36,478 nucleotides of DNA, from positions 1-36,478 of IMG/VR virus record IMGVR_UViG_3300034018_001699. The stretch is one strand, 5' to 3'. The stretch's first letter is position 1; each line of letters opens with the position of its first letter. The position numbers were made by a program, and so were the translations under genes. Under the pieces are notes generated by a model. The model made no database searches. It was not told where the DNA came from and worked only from the letters and a program-made list of their open reading frames with translations. This document shows, in pieces, positions 2,795-20,747 of this stretch. The DNA comes from a virus.

Positions 2795-3268
2795 ATGGAC
2801 AAATGCGAGCGCAGGCGAGAGCACGAGGGATTGATCTTTTGCGATGTGGCCAAGGAGTGGGCCGAAGGACTTGATATTCCGGTCACTCTCGCGGCATGCA
2901 AAGTATGCCTTGGGTGTGCAAAACCAAAGCAAGTCAACCGGGTGACTGTCTCCATTGCCATGGCTCGTCTGAGTCGAGACAACCACGAGCTATGGGTTAA
3001 GAAACAACCCGAGACCCTGGAGCACTTGCTCGAACCAACCATGTCCGAGAAGGCAATCCGGTACATCAACTCTACAACCCAATGGGTGATGGAAGGTCGG
3101 CCAGAGCGTACCGACGCACAAGTCGAAGCGGTCCTCAAGATCTGCCGAGCGTGCGACAATTGGACCGGTCATTCGTGCGACTTGTGTGGCTGCGAGATCA
3201 ACGAGTCGAATGGATGGCAGAATAAGGCTAGGCGATCAACGGAAAATTGCCCAAAAGGACACTGGTAG
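2795..3268 (+). CDS. Cys-rich putative zinc-binding protein
   Basis: A 157-residue protein with two Cys clusters. The N-terminal one contains AACKVCLGC. The C-terminal one (about residues 125-157) has the pattern KICRACDNW, SCDLCGCEI, then NCPKGHW. This CxxC...CxxCxC...CPxxxW arrangement recurs in small domains of phage and bacterial proteins and probably binds zinc. It has no signal peptide. It lies between the Gly-Ser-repeat protein and the glycosyltransferase-methyltransferase. It could be an accessory protein of the modification block or a tail component; I cannot assign a function. Confidence 0.62.
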   Translation: MDKCERRREHEGLIFCDVAKEWAEGLDIPVTLAACKVCLGCAKPKQVNRVTVSIAMARLSRDNHELWVKKQPETLEHLLEPTMSEKAIRYINSTTQWVMEGRPERTDAQVEAVLKICRACDNWTGHSCDLCGCEINESNGWQNKARRSTENCPKGHW

Positions 3269-3270
3269 AC

Positions 3271-4968
3271 ATGCCCAACCACAACGAGCTAACGCAATCC
3301 TGGACAGTTGAACAATGCATGGCACTCATGCAGCAGCCACCAGGACCATGGCCTGCTAACTGGTTCGGCTATCCAAACGTCATCGAGGCTTTTCGAAGGC
3401 TCTTTGACCAGGCCTCAAAGTCTGTCCCTCGTACTCCAGATAGATGGGATCACGATCGCGGCATTGTGATCTGTGGTGGTGGCTGGCGATTCTTCCCATC
3501 GATCTATGTGACTGTCCGACAGATTCGCGCCCATGGCTGCGACTTGCCAATACAGGTCTGGTACTTGGGGGATCGCGGGGAGTTCGATCTTAGGATGGCT
3601 CAAGCCTTAGAGCCTTACAATGTCGGCTGGGTGTGCGCCAACTCGTGGCAGCGGACCAGGGGCATTCCTCGAAGGATCTTGGGCGGATGGGAAATGAAAC
3701 CATTCGCGGCCCTGCATGCTCCATTCAAGGAGGTCATCTGCCTCGATGCCGATTCGTACCCGGTCTACAATCCCGAAGTCTTCATGGCCCACCCCGAATA
3801 CATGCGGGTCGGTGCTGCGTTCTGGCCGGATCAACAGAAGCTCGAACACGGACAGTGGGAGCGTTTTGGCTTACCATGGCATGATGAGCAAGCCTTTGAA
3901 TCGGGTCAGTACATGGTGGACAAGTCCAGGCACTATGACGCATTGTGGTTAACGGACTGGATGAATGATTACAGCGACTACGTGTATAAGCACATCTACG
4001 GCGACAAGGACACATTCCACCTATGCTGGCGAAAGATGGGCCGAGAGTGCTGCATCCCGACCACCCATCCCGGATGGCATCACGTAGCATTCATGCAGAA
4101 GGACTTCGACGGTCGGACGTTGTTTGTCCATCGAACCCGCGACAAGTTCCGATGGGAGGGGGACATTGACGGCCAGCCTGTCAACAAGTGGTATATGACC
4201 GGTCAGTATAATCATGCGGTGGCCTTCATTGCCGACATGCCAGATGAGATCCAGGCCCACGGATACTGCGACGAGTCGAGCAAGCTGATTCGACCGGACA
4301 AGCACTTTCATTTTTCTGACGGGCCGACAGGCGTAGCTCGTCGAACTTGGGACGAGGTCGCTTTATACAACGAGTATCGATTGCCGAACAAGTTCAGCAG
4401 CAAGGACGTGATCATCGATTGCGGTGCCCACATGGGGGCTTTTAGCTGGTCCTGTCTTCGTCGCAATGCTGGGCTTGTAATCGCGGTCGAACCCATGGCG
4501 GAAAATGTCGAGAGACTCGCAGCCAACCTGGATCGCGAGCGAAACCGAATCGAGATCATCCCTAAGGGCGTGTGGCGTGAAAATGGATCGATCACCTTGG
4601 AGGACGATCCAATGCACGAGCCAGGCGTGACAACCACGTTTAACCTGCTACAGACCAGCGAGTCGGGTCGGATCGTGCAGACGATCACCATGGACTCGGT
4701 AATCGATCGAGCGGTTAGTCTGTCTCCATCGGGTCGAGTGCGACTGCTCAAGGTGGATTGCGAAGGTGGCGAATACCCTGGGCTGTTGTGGTGCTCCAGG
4801 TTAGGGCTCGTGGATGAGATCTGCGGGGAGGTCCATCGCAATACCACCATCGACGGTACTGTCTATTCAACTGAGGACATCGAGCGACGATTGACCGACG
4901 AAGGCTTTACCGTCGAGGTCAAGCAGAACGGACCGAATACAGATCTACTTTGGGCGGTGAGAGAATGA
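3271..4968 (+). CDS. Glycosyltransferase-FkbM methyltransferase fusion
   Basis: A 565-residue two-domain enzyme. Residues ~60-300 look like a nucleotide-sugar-dependent transferase of the putative mannosyltransferase type (CGGGWRFFPSIYV; a DAD metal-binding motif at 159-161 in LDADSYPVYNPEVF). Residues ~375-560 form an FkbM-family SAM-dependent O-methyltransferase: DCGAHMGAF as the SAM loop, VEPMAEN after it, and LLKVDCEGGEY near 492-502. The family knowledge suggests sugar transfer followed by O-methylation. I chose ATG 3271, with AAAGGA upstream and 2 nt after the preceding stop, over a TTG at 3247 that would overlap that gene. It lies in the tail-tip block, so a virion protein such as the Gly-Ser-repeat protein is a plausible target. 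The substrate is unknown. Confidence 0.85.
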   Translation: MPNHNELTQSWTVEQCMALMQQPPGPWPANWFGYPNVIEAFRRLFDQASKSVPRTPDRWDHDRGIVICGGGWRFFPSIYVTVRQIRAHGCDLPIQVWYLGDRGEFDLRMAQALEPYNVGWVCANSWQRTRGIPRRILGGWEMKPFAALHAPFKEVICLDADSYPVYNPEVFMAHPEYMRVGAAFWPDQQKLEHGQWERFGLPWHDEQAFESGQYMVDKSRHYDALWLTDWMNDYSDYVYKHIYGDKDTFHLCWRKMGRECCIPTTHPGWHHVAFMQKDFDGRTLFVHRTRDKFRWEGDIDGQPVNKWYMTGQYNHAVAFIADMPDEIQAHGYCDESSKLIRPDKHFHFSDGPTGVARRTWDEVALYNEYRLPNKFSSKDVIIDCGAHMGAFSWSCLRRNAGLVIAVEPMAENVERLAANLDRERNRIEIIPKGVWRENGSITLEDDPMHEPGVTTTFNLLQTSESGRIVQTITMDSVIDRAVSLSPSGRVRLLKVDCEGGEYPGLLWCSRLGLVDEICGEVHRNTTIDGTVYSTEDIERRLTDEGFTVEVKQNGPNTDLLWAVRE

Positions 4969-5408
4969 ATAACCTGTCAAAGTCGCTGATTGAATCCTAC
5001 TTGTTCGTTTTGGCCTTGATGGCTGTCTTCGCGTTGTTTGCTTGGATGACTCGCGGGTCAAGCATACCACCAGAGCCACCAGAGCAACTGAGCGAAGCCA
5101 CTGTAGATGGATGGGGAGAGCCCCGCAGCTCCGAATGGTCGGCGGTGCGAGCAGCTCACGTCAAGCGGCATCCGGCCTGCCTGGCTTGCGGATCGGTCGA
5201 GCAGCTCAACGTTCACCACATCGAGCCATTCCACTTGCGACCGGACCTGGAGCTAGAACCAAACAACCTGGTGACCCTGTGTCGCGAGCATCACTTCCGC
5301 ATTGGTCACGATCCAGACGGACCATGGAAGCCACAAAAACCAAGCTGGATCAAGTCGAATCCGAATGTCAGGCAAGACTCCATCAACTGGGCAAGGTCAA
5401 GCAAGTGA
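4965..5408 (+). CDS. Membrane-anchored HNH endonuclease
   Basis: A 147-residue protein. Residues ~11-28 form one hydrophobic transmembrane segment followed by a Pro-rich linker. Residues 72-115 carry an HNH nuclease fold: CLACG (C72, C75), VHHIEPFH (H84, H85), an EPNNL loop, and TLCREHH (C106, H109, H110). The two CxxC-like pairs would hold the structural zinc; His85 is the likely general base. ATG 4965 overlaps the previous stop as ATGA, and an upstream TTG is less likely. HNH proteins often sit near terminases and help packaging, but a membrane anchor is odd for that. Action on DNA entering or leaving at the membrane is possible but untested. Confidence 0.82.
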   Translation: MNNLSKSLIESYLFVLALMAVFALFAWMTRGSSIPPEPPEQLSEATVDGWGEPRSSEWSAVRAAHVKRHPACLACGSVEQLNVHHIEPFHLRPDLELEPNNLVTLCREHHFRIGHDPDGPWKPQKPSWIKSNPNVRQDSINWARSSK

Positions 5409-6256
5409 ACCAACTGAGAACAGCTATATGGTGGACCACTTTTGCCTGTAACTTCAAGTGCAAATACTGCTGGGAAGTCCAGGCCCAAGAGCGGGGAGAG
5501 TTTAAGCCTGAGCCATTCTTGCCATGGGAGAAATGGGTCGAGGTATGGAACAAGCTCAAGCCTCAATTCCTCGACATCACAGGCGGTGAACCATTTCTCC
5601 CTGGGATCGGCCTGGTTCAAATCCTTGAGCACCTGGACAAGTCTATTAAAGTCTCCATCACGTCCAATCTGTCTCACAGTCTTCTAGACTTCGTCAAGGT
5701 AGCGACACCACACCAAGTTCACTCGATCACGGCTAGCTTTCACCCGACCGAAAACGGGACGAAGCAGCAGCCAATGAACCCAGAGATATTCATCGGGCGG
5801 GTGAAGTTTCTCCAGGAGTTTGGCTACCAGGTCACAGCGAATATGGTGGCTTGGCCAGAACAGCTTTGGCTTATCCCGCATTGGGTCCAAATGTTCGACG
5901 CTCAGGGAATCCGCTGGCATGTGGACCCCTACCAATCCATCGCCTATTACCCCTGGGATTACACCGAAGCACAGAAAGAAATGCTTCGTCCATTCATGCG
6001 AGAGAATCGAGCCTGGGGGCTAGATCCCAAACCAGATGGCAAGCAGGTACTCTGCTCAGGTGGGATCGACCATATCAGCGTTCAGCCGAATGGTGATGCC
6101 TGGCGTTGCATCCTGGAGCGCCAACAGCTAATCGGCAAGCTTGGTAACGTCTTCGATCCAGATTTCCGACTGGCCACAGAATCGAGACCCTGTGACCAGT
6201 CCTGGCAATGTCCAGCCTGCGATAGAGATAAGGTCAGCCTGGTTCAGATCGGCTAG
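5405..6256 (+). CDS. Radical SAM enzyme with SPASM/twitch-like Cys C-terminus
   Basis: A 283-residue radical SAM protein. The CxxxCxxC motif for the [4Fe-4S] cluster is at C15, C19 and C22 (ACNFKCKYC), followed by the SAM-contact motif DITGGEPF. The C-terminus adds further cysteines (LCSGG, WRC, and CDQSWQCPAC), like the auxiliary-cluster SPASM/twitch domains of enzymes that modify peptides. I chose GTG 5405, which overlaps the previous stop as GTGA; an in-frame ATG at 5324 would give 27 more residues but an 84-nt overlap. It is the last gene of the rightward operon, beside the glycosyltransferase fusion. Peptide or sugar modification is inferred; it lacks the spacing of QueE-type enzymes. 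Confidence 0.85.
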   Translation: MNQLRTAIWWTTFACNFKCKYCWEVQAQERGEFKPEPFLPWEKWVEVWNKLKPQFLDITGGEPFLPGIGLVQILEHLDKSIKVSITSNLSHSLLDFVKVATPHQVHSITASFHPTENGTKQQPMNPEIFIGRVKFLQEFGYQVTANMVAWPEQLWLIPHWVQMFDAQGIRWHVDPYQSIAYYPWDYTEAQKEMLRPFMRENRAWGLDPKPDGKQVLCSGGIDHISVQPNGDAWRCILERQQLIGKLGNVFDPDFRLATESRPCDQSWQCPACDRDKVSLVQIG

Positions 6257-6947: not shown

Positions 6948-9146
6948 TCATCCTTTAACAGAGTAGTAAGTTGCGAATTTACCATTCGCAGCAGGCACTT
7001 GTTTCGCCTCGATCACATGGGCCTGTACCATGGTATCGAGTATCTTGTCCAGGTCTTTCGCGTGCCACTTGATGGTTCGCAGCAAAGCGGATCGCGAGCA
7101 AAGCTGATTGCGTTTTGTATAGGCGTTGATCACCTTTCGGATTCGTTGCCACTTCTGCTGGGCCGGATCGTCGCTGGCAACCTCATCTTTCGCGATTGCG
7201 ATAAATCGATCGGTGCACCAGGTAGCGAAGTCTACCCCCCACTGCGCGGCCTGGTCATCAATAACCGGCGCTTCCTGGTCTCTGCTGCATGCATAGATCA
7301 AAGCTAATCGCCTAGCTTTCTGGATCGCTCGGCCCCAGATGGAGTTCTCGGTCTCGTCGTTTCCAGCGTCTTCGGCCTTGTTTACCAGCTTGCGGAAAAT
7401 TGCCGTTGCTGCTGGTGTCTCTGGTACCAGGATAGCCTCGGGATTGACTCCACCGAGATTTCCACCAGGCCGAAGGTTGATCCAGTAAGCAGCCTTCTCA
7501 AGTATGCTTTTCGGCGGCTCCTTCTCAATCGTCTCCTCGAACTTCAATCGCGGGCCAGAGTCAATAACCATCATCCGAGCAGCAAACCCGTCGCTCAAAT
7601 GGCCCTCTTCAAGTCCATCCCAAAACGTACTTGGTACGGTCAGACCTAGGAACGAGCAGCAAGGGTGATAGATCTCCTTATTGTTCTTGGAATCTGCGTA
7701 GCTCTTTTGCTTCCAGACTCCAGAGGTCTTTCCCCACAGCTCCAGCAATGCCTCTTGGACTGCGTGCAAGTGGGCTCCACCTGTCTTGATTCGCGTCTTG
7801 TCGAGGAAGCGCCCAAACTCATCCCAGATGTACAGCTTGGATCTACTGACCATCAAGTCAGAAGCCAAAGCAGAATCGGACGACACTTTGCCACCGTAGA
7901 GATTACCACCGTTTGAAGCATTCAGGATCTTCTCGATGCATTCCATCGGGGCTTGCTTGCCACCAGATGAAGGGGCAAGCAGGACGAAATAAAGATTCGA
8001 TCGGTTACCAGTCCGGTCCTTGTATTTCGCACCGATCAAAACTCCCTGGAGCGCCACAGCAGCCACAAGCGACAGTATGGGATTCTTCCTTGGGTTCTGG
8101 TCGGTGATGTAGTCCGAGACTTCCTTCATAAATCCAGGCACATTGTAAAGGTGCTCGGGAAAGCCGGTTTTCGCTCTCGATGCCTGGGCTTTACCCATCA
8201 GGCCACCGAGAAAGACTTCATACGCATCGAGTTCGCCGACTGAGACAGGGACTGCCGACTGCACTAGTCTGACCGATTCGTCCTCCAGCATCCAACCATG
8301 ACCACCCTCGGCTTGTCCAGCCTTCTCGGCTTGGTTCAGTTTGTGCTCCAGTTCTCTGGAGCCCCAAGGAGGCTGGCAACTCATATTCCACTCTTCGAGG
8401 ATCGGCCTGGCACCATTGGCTCCGAGTCCGAACCCGGTCACGAGTACGCAAGCCAGGCGAAAGGTGACACCATGTCCATCTTGTCCGCTGATCGCGGGTG
8501 GATAGCTGCGAGCGTAGAGCCTGGCTCGTTCTTCGGCATCTGGCCGATTGCCTTGCTTGGCTTGCTGCTTTGGTGCTGGAGCTGCGACGGGTGCTGGTGG
8601 TGGAGCGGATGCAGGCAGAACCACAGCAGCCAGCCAATCAAGACCGTCCTGGCAGTTCACAGTTTCCATGCAATCACCGTGGGCCTGACCTGTCACGGTG
8701 AAGTATCTGCCCGAAGAATAGACTTCGAGATGGGCGCCAGGCTTGCCGGGGATGTTCAACCTTCGGCCTCGATCACTCGCGAGCGTACCTCGGCAAAATA
8801 TCTTCATCCCCTTGGCGGATGGGCTAATCTCGCAGTAGCTCGGGAAGCGACTGAGCACATCGCGAGCCCACTCGTCAAGGCTTCCATCTTCACCAAAGCA
8901 GTTATCGAGATCGATTCCGACGAAGTCGTCGGCCTGGCTAAAAACGAAACCGAGACCAGAGAACGAGGGGGTGTTCTCCACGAACTGACAAGCCTGTTCA
9001 AAGCTGGTCCAGTGTCGCGGGTCCATCGAGCTAGCTCTCTGGCCATTGATCTGATACGGGATCTTGGAGCCTTTACCGTCGCGTTCTTCGAGTCTCCAAG
9101 CGACCCACTGCCGACAGTTCTTCATTGATTCAGGGACAAGCATCAT
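6948..9146 (-). CDS. Primase-polymerase / DUF3987 helicase-like replication protein
   Basis: A 732-residue replication protein. The N-terminal part is an archaeo-eukaryotic-type primase-polymerase of the NrS-1-like class: NCRQWVAWR near the start, the catalytic DLD at 79-81 (FVGIDLDN), and RYFTVTG at 147-153. Residues ~220-285 resemble a PriCT-like linker. Residues ~330-700 match the DUF3987 helicase-like domain, with APSSGGKQAP at 391-400 in the P-loop position and a Walker B YIWDEF near 439-444. The P-loop is unusual because Q replaces the usual Ser/Thr after GK. It likely primes and drives phage DNA replication together with the SF2 helicase encoded 4 nt upstream. The start could be the second Met at 9143. 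Confidence 0.87.
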   Translation of the reverse strand: MMLVPESMKNCRQWVAWRLEERDGKGSKIPYQINGQRASSMDPRHWTSFEQACQFVENTPSFSGLGFVFSQADDFVGIDLDNCFGEDGSLDEWARDVLSRFPSYCEISPSAKGMKIFCRGTLASDRGRRLNIPGKPGAHLEVYSSGRYFTVTGQAHGDCMETVNCQDGLDWLAAVVLPASAPPPAPVAAPAPKQQAKQGNRPDAEERARLYARSYPPAISGQDGHGVTFRLACVLVTGFGLGANGARPILEEWNMSCQPPWGSRELEHKLNQAEKAGQAEGGHGWMLEDESVRLVQSAVPVSVGELDAYEVFLGGLMGKAQASRAKTGFPEHLYNVPGFMKEVSDYITDQNPRKNPILSLVAAVALQGVLIGAKYKDRTGNRSNLYFVLLAPSSGGKQAPMECIEKILNASNGGNLYGGKVSSDSALASDLMVSRSKLYIWDEFGRFLDKTRIKTGGAHLHAVQEALLELWGKTSGVWKQKSYADSKNNKEIYHPCCSFLGLTVPSTFWDGLEEGHLSDGFAARMMVIDSGPRLKFEETIEKEPPKSILEKAAYWINLRPGGNLGGVNPEAILVPETPAATAIFRKLVNKAEDAGNDETENSIWGRAIQKARRLALIYACSRDQEAPVIDDQAAQWGVDFATWCTDRFIAIAKDEVASDDPAQQKWQRIRKVINAYTKRNQLCSRSALLRTIKWHAKDLDKILDTMVQAHVIEAKQVPAANGKFATYYSVKG

Positions 9147-9150
9147 CGGC

Positions 9151-10857
9151 CTAACTGTTGAATAGGTTTAATTGGATTTCGGCTAGCTCTCTGGCCTCGA
9201 TGACTGCTTCCTCGTTCGAGCAGTCCACTATTTCGCCGATCTCTACGGCTAGGATCTCTGGCCACTTGCGACCAGGTATCCATTTCAAATGCATCCGCTT
9301 TGGTGCTGCTAATGCATGCGGGACTTTTTTGAGCATGTGGTAGGCTTCCCAGCAGCTATTCGGACACGGTACGCTCGAGCGTTCTGCCCACCATGCCTCT
9401 GCTTTCCTCCTTGCAAACGAGCCTGGCGGGTGATCCAAGCAGATATACTCGGACACCGACTGCGTCCCCTTGAGGCGGTAGATAGCTCGGAAGGATCGGT
9501 GCTCCTTCTTCTCGGACTTGTAGACCAAGTAGACAGGCTCCTTAACCACATCCACCCATTCCGTGATCGGCTCCTTGATTCCACTCGACAGGACTGGCAG
9601 CTGGCTAGCTTGGGCCTCGTGCCTGGCTTCCGGCTCGGGAAACTCATACCCACAAGCAGGGCACTCGCGAGCTTGCAAGCTCAGTAGCTCTTTGCACTCT
9701 GGGCAAGCCTTGCTCGGTGTTTCCCCTGGAGCACCCTCCCTGGGTCCTTTGCGGTCCGGTGCTTTGAGTTGATCGATCGGCCCATGTCGGCGGATGTTTC
9801 CCGCGAAGTCAAGGACCAAGCAATTCTGCTTGCTGGGGTGAAGTCTGAAACCACGCCCCACCATCTGATACAGCAGACCAGGCGAAAGAGTCGGACGAAA
9901 CAATGCCACGCAGTCCACATTCGGTGCATCAAATCCCGTGGTCAAAACATCGATATTCACCAGGTATCGGATTAGACCAGCCTTGAACTTTGCTAGCGTC
10001 TCGTCTCGTTCTCCGGATGATGTCTCACCATCGACGTATCCGATCTGCTCCGCTGGTACTTGTTGGCCGATGCAATCACGCAACATCGCGGCATGTTTTC
10101 GACCACACGCGAACAGCAACACCGAATGGCGATCATGAGTCCAGCCGAGCAGCTCCAGCGTAGCGGCTCGGACCACATCCTCTTGAGCTGCTGAGCGATC
10201 CAAGGCACCCTGTACGAATTCACCACCCTTGGTGGCCACTCCATCAGTATTGATGGCGTGGGCTGTCTGCTTCGATGTCAGGGGGCACAGGTAGCCTTCC
10301 TCGATCAGCTTGAGCAGCGGGACTTCGTAGCAGATCTCAGTAAGAAGATTCTTCGGACCACACACAACCCCATGATCCAAACGGTATGGAGTCGCGGTCA
10401 GTCCAACGATTCGCAAATTAGGATTGATCGCTAGTAGGTGATCCAGGAGTTGCCGATACATCCCCTCACCTGATAACGGAATCAGGTGAGCTTCGTCAAC
10501 GATCACAATATCGCGATGGCCGATCATGTAGGCAGCGGCTTGCCGAAAGCAGGACTGGACACCAGCGACCACGATCGAATGTCCGTGCTCCTTTCGTCTC
10601 AATCCTGCCGACCAGACTCCAATGTCGAGCCCTGGTAAGCACGAGGCGATTTTCTCGGCGTTCTGTTCTAGCAGCTCCTTGCGGTGAGCTAGGACGAGAC
10701 ACCGACCACCCCAAGCGACCACATCACGCGCCAGCATGGCAATCACAAGCGACTTACCAGCCCCAGTGGGGAGCACGATGCAAGGATTACCAGGCTGGGC
10801 GCGGATGAAGTCCCAGCAAGCAGAAACCGATTCTGACTGATACCATCGCGGATCCAT
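9151..10857 (-). CDS. SF2 DEAH-box helicase, RadD-like
   Basis: A 568-residue superfamily 2 helicase. Motif I is LPTGAGKS (29-36), motif II is DEAH (121-124), motif III is LTATPYR, and motif VI is QMVGRGFR. A four-Cys zinc ribbon (CPECK and CPACGYEF) follows the helicase core near residues 385-405. That layout, with the GYLCPLTSK stretch between the two RecA folds, matches RadD/YejH-type helicases that act in recombination and repair. A GAGGAG site lies 6 nt before the ATG, made from the last codons of the upstream gene. It probably unwinds DNA or recombination intermediates for the phage. Confidence 0.88.
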   Translation of the reverse strand: MDPRWYQSESVSACWDFIRAQPGNPCIVLPTGAGKSLVIAMLARDVVAWGGRCLVLAHRKELLEQNAEKIASCLPGLDIGVWSAGLRRKEHGHSIVVAGVQSCFRQAAAYMIGHRDIVIVDEAHLIPLSGEGMYRQLLDHLLAINPNLRIVGLTATPYRLDHGVVCGPKNLLTEICYEVPLLKLIEEGYLCPLTSKQTAHAINTDGVATKGGEFVQGALDRSAAQEDVVRAATLELLGWTHDRHSVLLFACGRKHAAMLRDCIGQQVPAEQIGYVDGETSSGERDETLAKFKAGLIRYLVNIDVLTTGFDAPNVDCVALFRPTLSPGLLYQMVGRGFRLHPSKQNCLVLDFAGNIRRHGPIDQLKAPDRKGPREGAPGETPSKACPECKELLSLQARECPACGYEFPEPEARHEAQASQLPVLSSGIKEPITEWVDVVKEPVYLVYKSEKKEHRSFRAIYRLKGTQSVSEYICLDHPPGSFARRKAEAWWAERSSVPCPNSCWEAYHMLKKVPHALAAPKRMHLKWIPGRKWPEILAVEIGEIVDCSNEEAVIEARELAEIQLNLFNS

Positions 10858-11467: not shown

Positions 11468-12187
11468 CTAGAATGGCGGATCCATGCTCGGATCGTAGGG
11501 AGGCTGCTGTTGTGGCTGCTGAGCTGGCCTTGGCTGTGCCCACGGTGGAGCTCCAGCAGGTGGGCTCATTGGCTGTTGCTGCATCGGCTGAGGCTGATAC
11601 TGCTGGGCCGGTGGCTGCGTTCGGTACTGTGTTTGTAGGTCCATGTGCTGCTGCTGTGGTACCTGTTGGACAGGTGGAGCGTACTGAGGCTGCTGCTGCT
11701 GTGGCTGTTGCCATGCCTGGGCAGGTGCCTGAGCGTACTGCTGGCCGGCTGGCTTCGGTGGCTGCCCCTTGGGCTTCGCGAGCGGTGGAGCTGCGGAGGC
11801 GGTGCTCCAGCAGGTCTGGACATTGTTGACAACCTTTCCCGAGTCGAGCTGCTTCGCGATCAGCCGAACGAAAAATGGAATATCATGCAGTTCGGTAGAG
11901 TCGCTCGGTGACATCACACCAACGGCGCGGCAGACCTGGGCTAGCTGCTGCATGCCGATTCGCACTGCTTCCTCGTTGTGGCTGCTCATCGTGTAATTGC
12001 TGAACACTTTTCGCCCCTGCATCTGCTCAGGCTGCATCACATCAAGAGTCAAGCTCAGAGACTGATTTCCGTTGTCCTGATTGATTCGCATCTCACTAGC
12101 TGCGACGTAAACCATATAGTCACCAGCGGGGAGTGGTCCAGGTCCGGTGTCCTGGTGGTCATTCGCGTTAAAATTGATCAAAGCCAT
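11468..12187 (-). CDS. DUF669-family ssDNA-binding-like protein with SSB-type tail
   Basis: A 239-residue protein. Residues 1-~120 match the phage DUF669 family (INFNAND, LPAGDYMVYV, the GRKVFSNYTM stretch, QVCRAVGV, ELHDIPFFVRL), which stands in for single-stranded DNA-binding proteins in many phage replication modules. The rest is a disordered Gln/Pro-rich tail ending in DPSMDPPF, very like the acidic DDDIPF tip of bacterial SSB that recruits partner proteins. The long Gln/Pro tail also resembles SSB linkers. It sits between the Sak4-like ATPase and the replication genes. The assignment as the phage SSB is inference from family, tail and place. Confidence 0.82.
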   Translation of the reverse strand: MALINFNANDHQDTGPGPLPAGDYMVYVAASEMRINQDNGNQSLSLTLDVMQPEQMQGRKVFSNYTMSSHNEEAVRIGMQQLAQVCRAVGVMSPSDSTELHDIPFFVRLIAKQLDSGKVVNNVQTCWSTASAAPPLAKPKGQPPKPAGQQYAQAPAQAWQQPQQQQPQYAPPVQQVPQQQHMDLQTQYRTQPPAQQYQPQPMQQQPMSPPAGAPPWAQPRPAQQPQQQPPYDPSMDPPF

Positions 12188-17431: not shown

Positions 17432-17584
17432 TTGAAGGAATACCAATAAAAAGACTACTAAACTACTACTACTACTACTTACTATTATACAACTTCACCA
17501 TCAATGTCTTTTTCCTGTGTGTGTGTGGTTTTAGGGGGGTATGTTTATACGCGAGGGTGATCTGGGGTGAATCTGTTTTGGGCG

Positions 17585-19864: not shown

Positions 19865-20527
19865 CTACTCGATCGATCCAGAAACCAAGGTGAACTGCTT
19901 GCCAGATCGTATCAGATCACCATTGGCAATAATCGTCTCGACTAGGTCAACCGATGCGGTACTTGAATCAACGGTCACTCCGACGACTGGAGTCGTGAGT
20001 TTGTCTTTCGATCCATCGAGATAGCAGCCTGAGAGCACTCCAGCAGAACCATTGACGACCGCAACGCAAGCGCGATTCGCAGCGGTCGATAGATTGGTGA
20101 CTCGACTATTCGAGATAGCAAAATCACAACCGCTGAGAAATAACGATGTGCTGTCCTTGGTGTGAGTCAAATCCAAACCCGTCGCCGTGAATTTCGGTCG
20201 AACTGCTCCAGCAGTCGGAAACACAGCAATAGTTCCGCAAGAACCAACAGCGTCTGGAACGATCACCACTGGATCGGCGGCAGTACCGCGAATATCGATC
20301 TCACCGTAGACTGAAATCGGCAAGGAAATCTGCACTCGAATTTTGACTCCAGGCTCTAAGATCAGCTTTCCGCCAACTCGGACAGCGACCTGCTTGGTCA
20401 GGACGTAATCACCAGAGGGAACCGTCGCTGTTTCACCAGCAAGCACAGTTCGCACCGGAAACGGAGTCTGAGCATTAGCGACACATCCGAACAAACAAAC
20501 AACAGCGGACAAAACAAAGCGAAGCAT
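19865..20527 (-). CDS. Secreted beta-helix-like protein
   Basis: A 220-residue protein with a clear signal peptide: MLRF, a hydrophobic core to about residue 15, and a cleavage site after ANA (about 19/20). The mature part consists of short Val/Ile/Gly-rich repeats (GGKLILEPGVKIRV, YGEIDIRG, then SLFLSGCDFAISNSRVTNLS), the pattern of a right-handed parallel beta-helix. Beta-helices serve as tailspikes, lyases or adhesins. Its place at the head of a leftward operon, away from the tail genes, suggests an exported product acting at the cell envelope. AAAGG precedes ATG 20527. Confidence 0.72.
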   Translation of the reverse strand: MLRFVLSAVVCLFGCVANAQTPFPVRTVLAGETATVPSGDYVLTKQVAVRVGGKLILEPGVKIRVQISLPISVYGEIDIRGTAADPVVIVPDAVGSCGTIAVFPTAGAVRPKFTATGLDLTHTKDSTSLFLSGCDFAISNSRVTNLSTAANRACVAVVNGSAGVLSGCYLDGSKDKLTTPVVGVTVDSSTASVDLVETIIANGDLIRSGKQFTLVSGSIE

Positions 20528-20565
20528 CTAAACAACCTTTCAAAACAGAAAACAAACAAACAAAG
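20528..20565 (-). promoter_or_regulatory. GTTT-repeat leader of the beta-helix gene
   Basis: On the minus strand this reads CTTTGTTTGTTTGTTTTCTGTTTTGAAAGGTTGTTTAG up to the ATG. The GTTT-repeat plus CTGTTT block matches the leader of the Sak4-like gene. It starts directly after the tRNA-like element. Confidence 0.5.
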
Positions 20566-20660
20566 CGACCGCGACAGGATTTGAACCTGCGATTTCAAAC
20601 ATCCGCTCCAGAAGGAATAAGCAAATGCTTGCTGTGTTGCCTGGATTACACCACGCGATC
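20566..20660 (-). tRNA. tRNA-like gene with oversized anticodon arm
   Basis: The 95-nt minus-strand sequence has a 7-bp acceptor stem GATCGCG/CGCGGTC (extendable to 8), T8, a D arm GTGT/ACAC with A14 and a GG-containing loop, a 5-nt variable loop AAATC, and a T arm GCAGG-TTCAAAT-CCTGT that matches the B-box consensus. The anticodon arm is abnormal: CAAGCATTTGCT pairs with AGCGGATGTTTG over 12 bp, closing a 12-nt loop, so there is no standard 7-nt anticodon loop. No CCA is encoded. It may be a tRNA mimic, a decayed tRNA or a leader element. I assign no amino acid. Confidence 0.68.
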
Positions 20661-20747
20661 GAAAAAATTGGCTGCGAGCGACACGTCTGGCCGATTCATA
20701 CCGAGACGTTCGGGCTGCGTTTCCCCATCGTTTACCTCGAGCCAATA

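Follow-up and report, generated by a model that had tools for sequence, protein, structure and literature searches.

What could a tRNA-like RNA do for a phage when the place of the codon-reading arm is filled by a closed hairpin? The question is raised by a locus in the window, by which we mean the whole stretch of DNA that was analysed, a linear record from IMG/VR, 36,478 bases long. Our answer, to which we give a probability of about 0.5, is that the locus encodes a non-decoding element with a tRNA frame that RNase P and RNase Z would excise and that would be selected for the formation of mRNA ends.

Genome and probable host

The genes of the window include those for a terminase, a portal, a major head protein, a primase, a helicase, and an exonuclease. 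All terminase matches in named phages showed less than 60% identity. Of 108 terminase relatives in cellular genomes, 80 were kept, and almost all of these belong to Planctomycetota or groups close to it; the virus therefore probably infects bacteria of the Planctomycetota type. The genome of one terminase locus, L224 (CP036432.1), contains dense clusters of lower-scoring tRNAs at 5.746-5.756 Mb and 6.008-6.012 Mb, the second about 14-40 kb from the terminase locus. On the plus strand of the window, positions 2441-2788 encode a predicted protein with a long Gly-Ser repeat, and positions 3247-6256 hold a mannosyltransferase-like plus FkbM methyltransferase gene, with a radical SAM gene after it.

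A cloverleaf with a hairpin in place of the anticodon arm

The tRNA-like RNA is a 95-nt cloverleaf read on the minus strand, from 20660 to 20566, and it heads the leftward genes beside a divergent junction with the rightward genes. The features of the locus are as follows:

20566 to 20660, minus strand: tRNA-like RNA (RF00005, 36.9 bits; leave-one-out model R1, 66.1 bits, E 3.7e-17)
20654 to 20660, minus strand: 5' strand of the acceptor stem, from structural comparison
20634 to 20651, minus strand: D arm of four pairs with GG in the loop, nearly invariant in 15 relatives and partly fixed by the search pattern
20596 to 20631, minus strand: hairpin replacing the anticodon arm, with no decoding loop; its outer pairs covary in relatives
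20574 to 20590, minus strand: T arm of five pairs with the loop TTCAAAT, from pairing and from covariation in relatives
20567 to 20573, minus strand: 3' strand of the acceptor stem, with the discriminator at 20566 and CCA not encoded, from the sequence
20541 to 20565, minus strand: U-rich trailer, from the sequence; a U is the second base past the discriminator, within the known stimulating distance for RNase Z
19865 to 20527, minus strand: next gene (220 aa), starting 38 nt after the tRNA-like RNA, with a 77% identical homologue in L001
20812 to 20838, minus strand: possible weak promoter (TTGACA, 15 nt, TAAAAT), about 150 nt upstream, read by eye

The coordinates in the original prediction were correct, the strand is minus like that of the 19865-20527 gene, and the 38 nt claimed between the RNA and that gene were confirmed. 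The canonical acceptor, D, and T arms described there were found with all their pairs (7/7, 4/4, and 5/5, respectively); the variable loop has 5 bases. The 36-nt hairpin at the anticodon position (20631-20596) has 13 consecutive standard pairs, four of them G-U, and a 10-nt loop, and the 12 pairs and 12-nt loop claimed earlier are this same hairpin with its last pair opened. The 5-pair anticodon stem, 7-base loop, and U33 of a canonical tRNA are missing. Base 20661 (position -1) is able to pair with 20566 (position 73), which makes an acceptor of 8 pairs possible.

None of 200 shuffles was as stable as the hairpin alone (z -4.46) or as the whole element (z -3.44); the energy model refolded the tip of the hairpin differently. 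The plus strand was rejected as the RNA since the stability signal was absent there (z -1.12), and the long leader folded as a whole had ordinary stability (z -0.10). A promoter scan with spacings of 16-18 nt found none.

Detection by tRNA models

ARAGORN and a fast Rfam scan of the whole window missed the element. The Rfam tRNA model RF00005 matched it above the cut-off (36.9 bits, cut-off 29) with the anticodon arm skipped, in a more permissive Rfam scan and in a separate genome search. A covariance search, which the original prediction had put forward as a check, found the tRNA frame and no standard tRNA with a normal anticodon. Model R1, built from 14 relatives with the window left out, had this element as its sole match in the window, and it also found the element of G002, which was outside the training set (E 1.2e-12).

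Rfam and ARAGORN label some of the relatives as tRNA, with differing or impossible anticodons. Rfam 15 gave nothing besides tRNA in the loci scanned, and sequence comparison with named phages returned short tRNA-like matches only. No account of anticodon-less tRNA-like RNAs in phages was found in the open-licence literature searched.

Covariation in a family of 15 members

A search pattern based on the D and T loops retrieved 19 viral loci. With the window included and near copies thinned, 15 members were compared; L342 stands for six near-identical matches (L342, L343, L344, L350, L352, and L353), and the 15 still contain five near copies (L122, L014, L354, L002, and L123) and another two (L349 and G025).

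The acceptor sequences of the members differ throughout and yet pair, except in G013d, and the acceptor, T, and anticodon-arm stems covary strongly. Standard pairs filled 96.1% of the cells, versus 36-48% in controls with slid partners. Changes on both sides occurred in 15 of the 22 pairs (73 cells, versus 20 in shuffles), and the covariation was 0.675, compared with 0.191 after shuffling. The elbow letters of the D and T loops (GG; TTCAA) were kept in all members, being partly fixed by the search pattern.

What fills the anticodon position varies. The tips include GAAA, GCAA, GGGGGCGA, and a nearly closed CGAG/CTCG tip; other arms are a 9-pair stem with an 11-base loop, a hairpin with a bulge, and the 13 pairs of the window, and G022 and G017 have further arms with GCGA and GCAA tetraloops. 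No member has a 5-pair, 7-base anticodon arm with U33. There is free variation at base 73 and in the first acceptor pair, a pattern suggestive of the absence of one shared aminoacylation identity. Because the stems covary across the 15 members, none has an anticodon loop, and R1 finds the element, we conclude on comparative grounds that it is a genuine RNA that does not decode, and we reject both a codon-reading tRNA and a fold due to chance.

Relatives at and beyond the junction

G002, whose terminase is 80% identical, has a tRNA-like RNA of 78 nt at the same divergent junction; its arm has 5 pairs, and the loop is 10 bases long and rich in purines. A 109-nt tRNA-like RNA stands at the same place in G009 and G010, and in both a gene of the same family follows downstream. 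G006 contains this downstream gene and lacks an element at the site, and the junction is not covered in the nearest relative, G001. In the more distant relatives G013, G016, G022, and G025, such RNAs and the terminase are on opposite strands.

A tRNA-family search of 47 records gave 10 matches at E 0.01 or better, 9 of them above the cut-off; the elements of G002 and G025 were missed by it and found by other searches. In 38 further terminase relatives, the five matches were two ordinary tRNAs and three RNAs of 63-64 nt without a D arm (L299, L300, and L301), which are Met-like, have a long anticodon stem, and come from distant relatives. Many of the records searched are fragments, in which the absence of an element means little.

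Related phages have one to about five such RNAs each. The element is dispensable, since two decayed relatives have damaged acceptors (L348 9757-9829; L312 14373-14448) and G006 does without it. The G013 contig, L309, has four tRNA-like RNAs on the plus strand (8988-9104, 9370-9415, 10272-10329, and 11645-11719), one of which is a 46-nt minihelix of acceptor, T arm, and small hairpin; the last has a damaged acceptor. Small ORFs ending in PPTVE were seen near tRNA-like RNAs in L309 (9144-9362), L303 (9621-9881), and L312 (2098-2295 and 5036-5254, counted on the minus strand).

The gene that follows the element in the window had been called a beta-helix gene. The model of its product has a leading helix and then short strands, all-beta, at low confidence (pLDDT 48.8), and Pfam and PHROG searches gave no match; the beta-helix identity is putative. 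Between the tRNA-like RNA and this gene the link is weak, because the genes downstream of the element differ in relatives and, in L001, the single contig with a homologue of the 19865-20527 gene, the RNA lies downstream of that homologue. The earlier interpretation is supported in part: the kept, covarying frame, the lack of an anticodon, and the U-rich 3' trailer agree with a processed tRNA mimic that lies within an mRNA leader.

Processing signals and gene boundaries

In Bacillus subtilis, a U just after base 73 stimulates RNase Z about 200-fold, according to an excerpt of PMC10100781. A U within 2 nt after base 73 was present in 25 of 25 elements, and in 18 of 18 groups once near copies were collapsed by hand; the expectation from local composition was 0.42 (P 1.6e-7 for the 18 groups). 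Host-type tRNAs of one planctomycete genome (best 30 of 89 matches) had the U signal in 30/30 and an encoded CCA in 0/30. The U signal alone fits a mere processing site and a functional small RNA alike.

Pairing between positions -1 and 73 was possible in 20 of the 25 elements (13/16 hand-collapsed groups, P 4.5e-4), versus 11 of the 30 host tRNAs, and may shift the cleavage by RNase P. As in t-element-like processing elements, the tRNA-like fold of the window stands at a gene boundary, 38 nt before a gene. By our ORF rule, an upstream stop codon lay 8 nt or less from the start of the element in 14 of the 25, and no upstream ORF was found for seven, the window included. For the elements of the window and of G010 no gene was found just upstream, so there is nothing there to be separated; the element of G002 likewise lies at the divergent junction. 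These cases speak against a role in separating mRNAs.

A wider set of tRNA-like frames in phages

Among the matches listed for one D-arm pattern with a long gap there were 62 distinct phage sequences. A simple rule classed 39 of them as lacking a canonical anticodon arm; the number rose to 42 when arms resembling a T arm were taken out of the canonical ones. One T-arm/acceptor pattern gave 78 matches, 62 with a fully paired acceptor partner; among its 46 distinct sequences, our rule recognised a canonical arm in four, and a few more looked leucine-type by eye. In loci found with this pattern a second D-arm type recurred (type-B frame), with inserts of 30 to 73 nt, 13 of them distinct in 16 loci, and some inserts appeared in more than one contig (L400 and L436; L345 and L393).

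There is a fair chance that the element of the window belongs to an undescribed class of phage RNA. The fuller proposal, which we place slightly below even odds, is that this noncoding class is wide and consists of a tRNA frame with an exchangeable insert at the anticodon position, matured by host tRNA enzymes and serving to cut operons or to deliver the insert; its members would span lengths between 46 nt and well beyond 100 nt, and a genome may have several.

Other frames were seen in these searches. Loci L388-L450 repeat the frame GGATCGG...CCGATCC with the D arm GCGTGGTGGGAACACGC; their inserts are 30 to 73 nt long. L022, L031, L035, L069, L075, and L095 are tRNA-like RNAs of 112-116 nt that share an inner hairpin, which is conserved, and the motif CAGCA; CCA is encoded in all except L035, and L022 lies within a large tRNA cluster. 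In L008, L033, L107, and L005 the acceptor is AGTCAGG/CCTGACT or a near variant, and a shared insert, GTCGC or GACGC, replaces the anticodon arm. A second T-arm-like hairpin holds the anticodon position in L038, L087, and L112. L016, L019, L030, L046, L086, and L083 are class II phage tRNAs and possible suppressors, with the anticodon CTA (UAG-reading) in five loci and TCA (UGA-reading) in L083.

A proposed model of excision at mRNA ends

RNase P and RNase Z recognise the tRNA elbow (excerpt of PMC11693755). We read the element as one excised by the maturases because the parts read by RNase P, RNase Z, and the CCA enzyme are conserved and the part needed for translation is gone. The elbow and acceptor would be retained so that host tRNA-maturing enzymes act on the element, and the anticodon arm, unneeded for maturation, would be closed by a stable hairpin and free to change. 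The element would be part of the transcript of the leftward phage operon; RNase P would make the 5' cut, RNase Z would cut directly behind base 73, and a CCA would be added. At these cuts the mRNAs on either side would finish or start, and an RNA the size of a tRNA would be set free, unable to decode and not aminoacylated. The likeliest benefit would be the formation of mRNA ends rather than the released RNA. We infer all of these steps, from transcription, cleavage, and CCA addition to the lack of aminoacylation and the selection for mRNA ends.

Alternative explanations

The released RNA might instead be a tRNA decoy that titrates a host factor or defence enzyme acting on the acceptor, the CCA end, or the elbow, while evading anticodon nucleases. 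A frame conserved in all 15 members, each without an anticodon, and the several copies in some genomes agree with this, but the defence target is not known and the members share neither base 73 nor an acceptor sequence; we consider a decoy unlikely but, like the scaffold described next, a live alternative. Sequestering of tRNA enzymes, suggested earlier, may occur but drew no direct support from these results.

Somewhat less probable again is a natural tRNA scaffold for small RNAs, in which the insert would be the payload that acts on targets and the frame would mature and protect it. The varied inserts of the type-B frames, some recurring across contigs, agree with such a scaffold, and if they are payloads, the tRNA scaffold arose in nature before biotechnology. 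The insert of the window, however, is a closed hairpin whose 12-nt loop has no complement of at least 10 bases elsewhere in the window (the sole match is 9 bases at 17434), and the short tetraloop arms of relatives leave no payload.

That the element is a decaying, functionless phage tRNA gene with an insertion is improbable. Damage in some relatives and the missing element of G006 point that way, but the window keeps all pairs of its three stems, and this reading is contradicted by covariation far above both controls. A working tRNA, with an unusual anticodon arm or after intron removal, is largely refuted and very improbable: some relatives are called tRNA by Rfam and ARAGORN, but none has the 5-pair arm, 7-base loop, and U33, their arms end in tetraloops or triloops, and the hosts are bacterial, a group not known to have small protein-spliced tRNA introns.

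Three known kinds of element were rejected. A tRNA-Sec was set aside since there is neither a UCA anticodon arm nor a long variable arm (the loop has 5 bases); the -1:73 pair of an 8+5 acceptor/T helix of the tRNA-Sec type could form in the window element and in 13 of the 16 groups. A T-box or a regulator of the tRNA-Other type would need an anticodon loop to pair with a specifier codon, and there is none. An attachment site was rejected because no integrase was seen among the ORFs checked (20 by PHROGs and 20 by Pfam, several shared) and the frames are full-length rather than 3' halves. L296 (58 nt), unlike these full-length frames, resembles a tRNA 3' half.

Comparison with known systems

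Our preferred reading remains that of a non-decoding element cut out by tRNA maturases. Phage tRNA genes are usually read as helpers of translation, whereas the frames described here covary and are unable to decode, and tRNA finders miss or mislabel them. Members of RF00005 have the acceptor, D, and T arms in common with the window element, which lacks their anticodon arm. The species 1 RNA (rnaC) of phage T4 is stable and has, close to the 3' end, a perfect tRNA T arm; it differs in its length of 139 nt, its place in a tRNA cluster, and the absence of an Rfam tRNA match even at E 0.1. The tRNA-Other of Bacillus cereus is presented, in an excerpt of PMC3399842, as a pseudo-tRNA that acts outside translation and may be a tRNA-like element within a longer RNA; its anticodon is that of Trp and it lies on a chromosomal island, whereas the window element has no anticodon and belongs to a phage family.

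Among eukaryotic RNAs, an excerpt of PMC11693755 describes mascRNA as having a longer anticodon-equivalent stem and a compact loop, and as not aminoacylated. As there described, the human mascRNA and menRNA share with our element the acceptor and T arm, the closed hairpin at the anticodon equivalent, and the elbow letters; they are 3' ends of eukaryotic lncRNAs with a reduced D arm, whereas the D arm of the phage element is complete.

Plant mitochondrial t-elements lie at mRNA ends, are cut by RNase P and RNase Z, receive a CCA tail, and are not aminoacylated, according to an excerpt of PMC11658184. The likeness is a tRNA-like sequence at a gene or mRNA boundary, with the cleavage predicted in our case. 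The t-elements are organellar and close to ordinary tRNAs, whereas the frames here are borne by phages and varied hairpins replace the anticodon arm. Most likely, the element would work as t-elements and mascRNA do, by likeness of form rather than by shown homology. If these frames are operon elements cut by tRNA maturases, the phages of bacteria share a trick with plant mitochondria and human lncRNAs.
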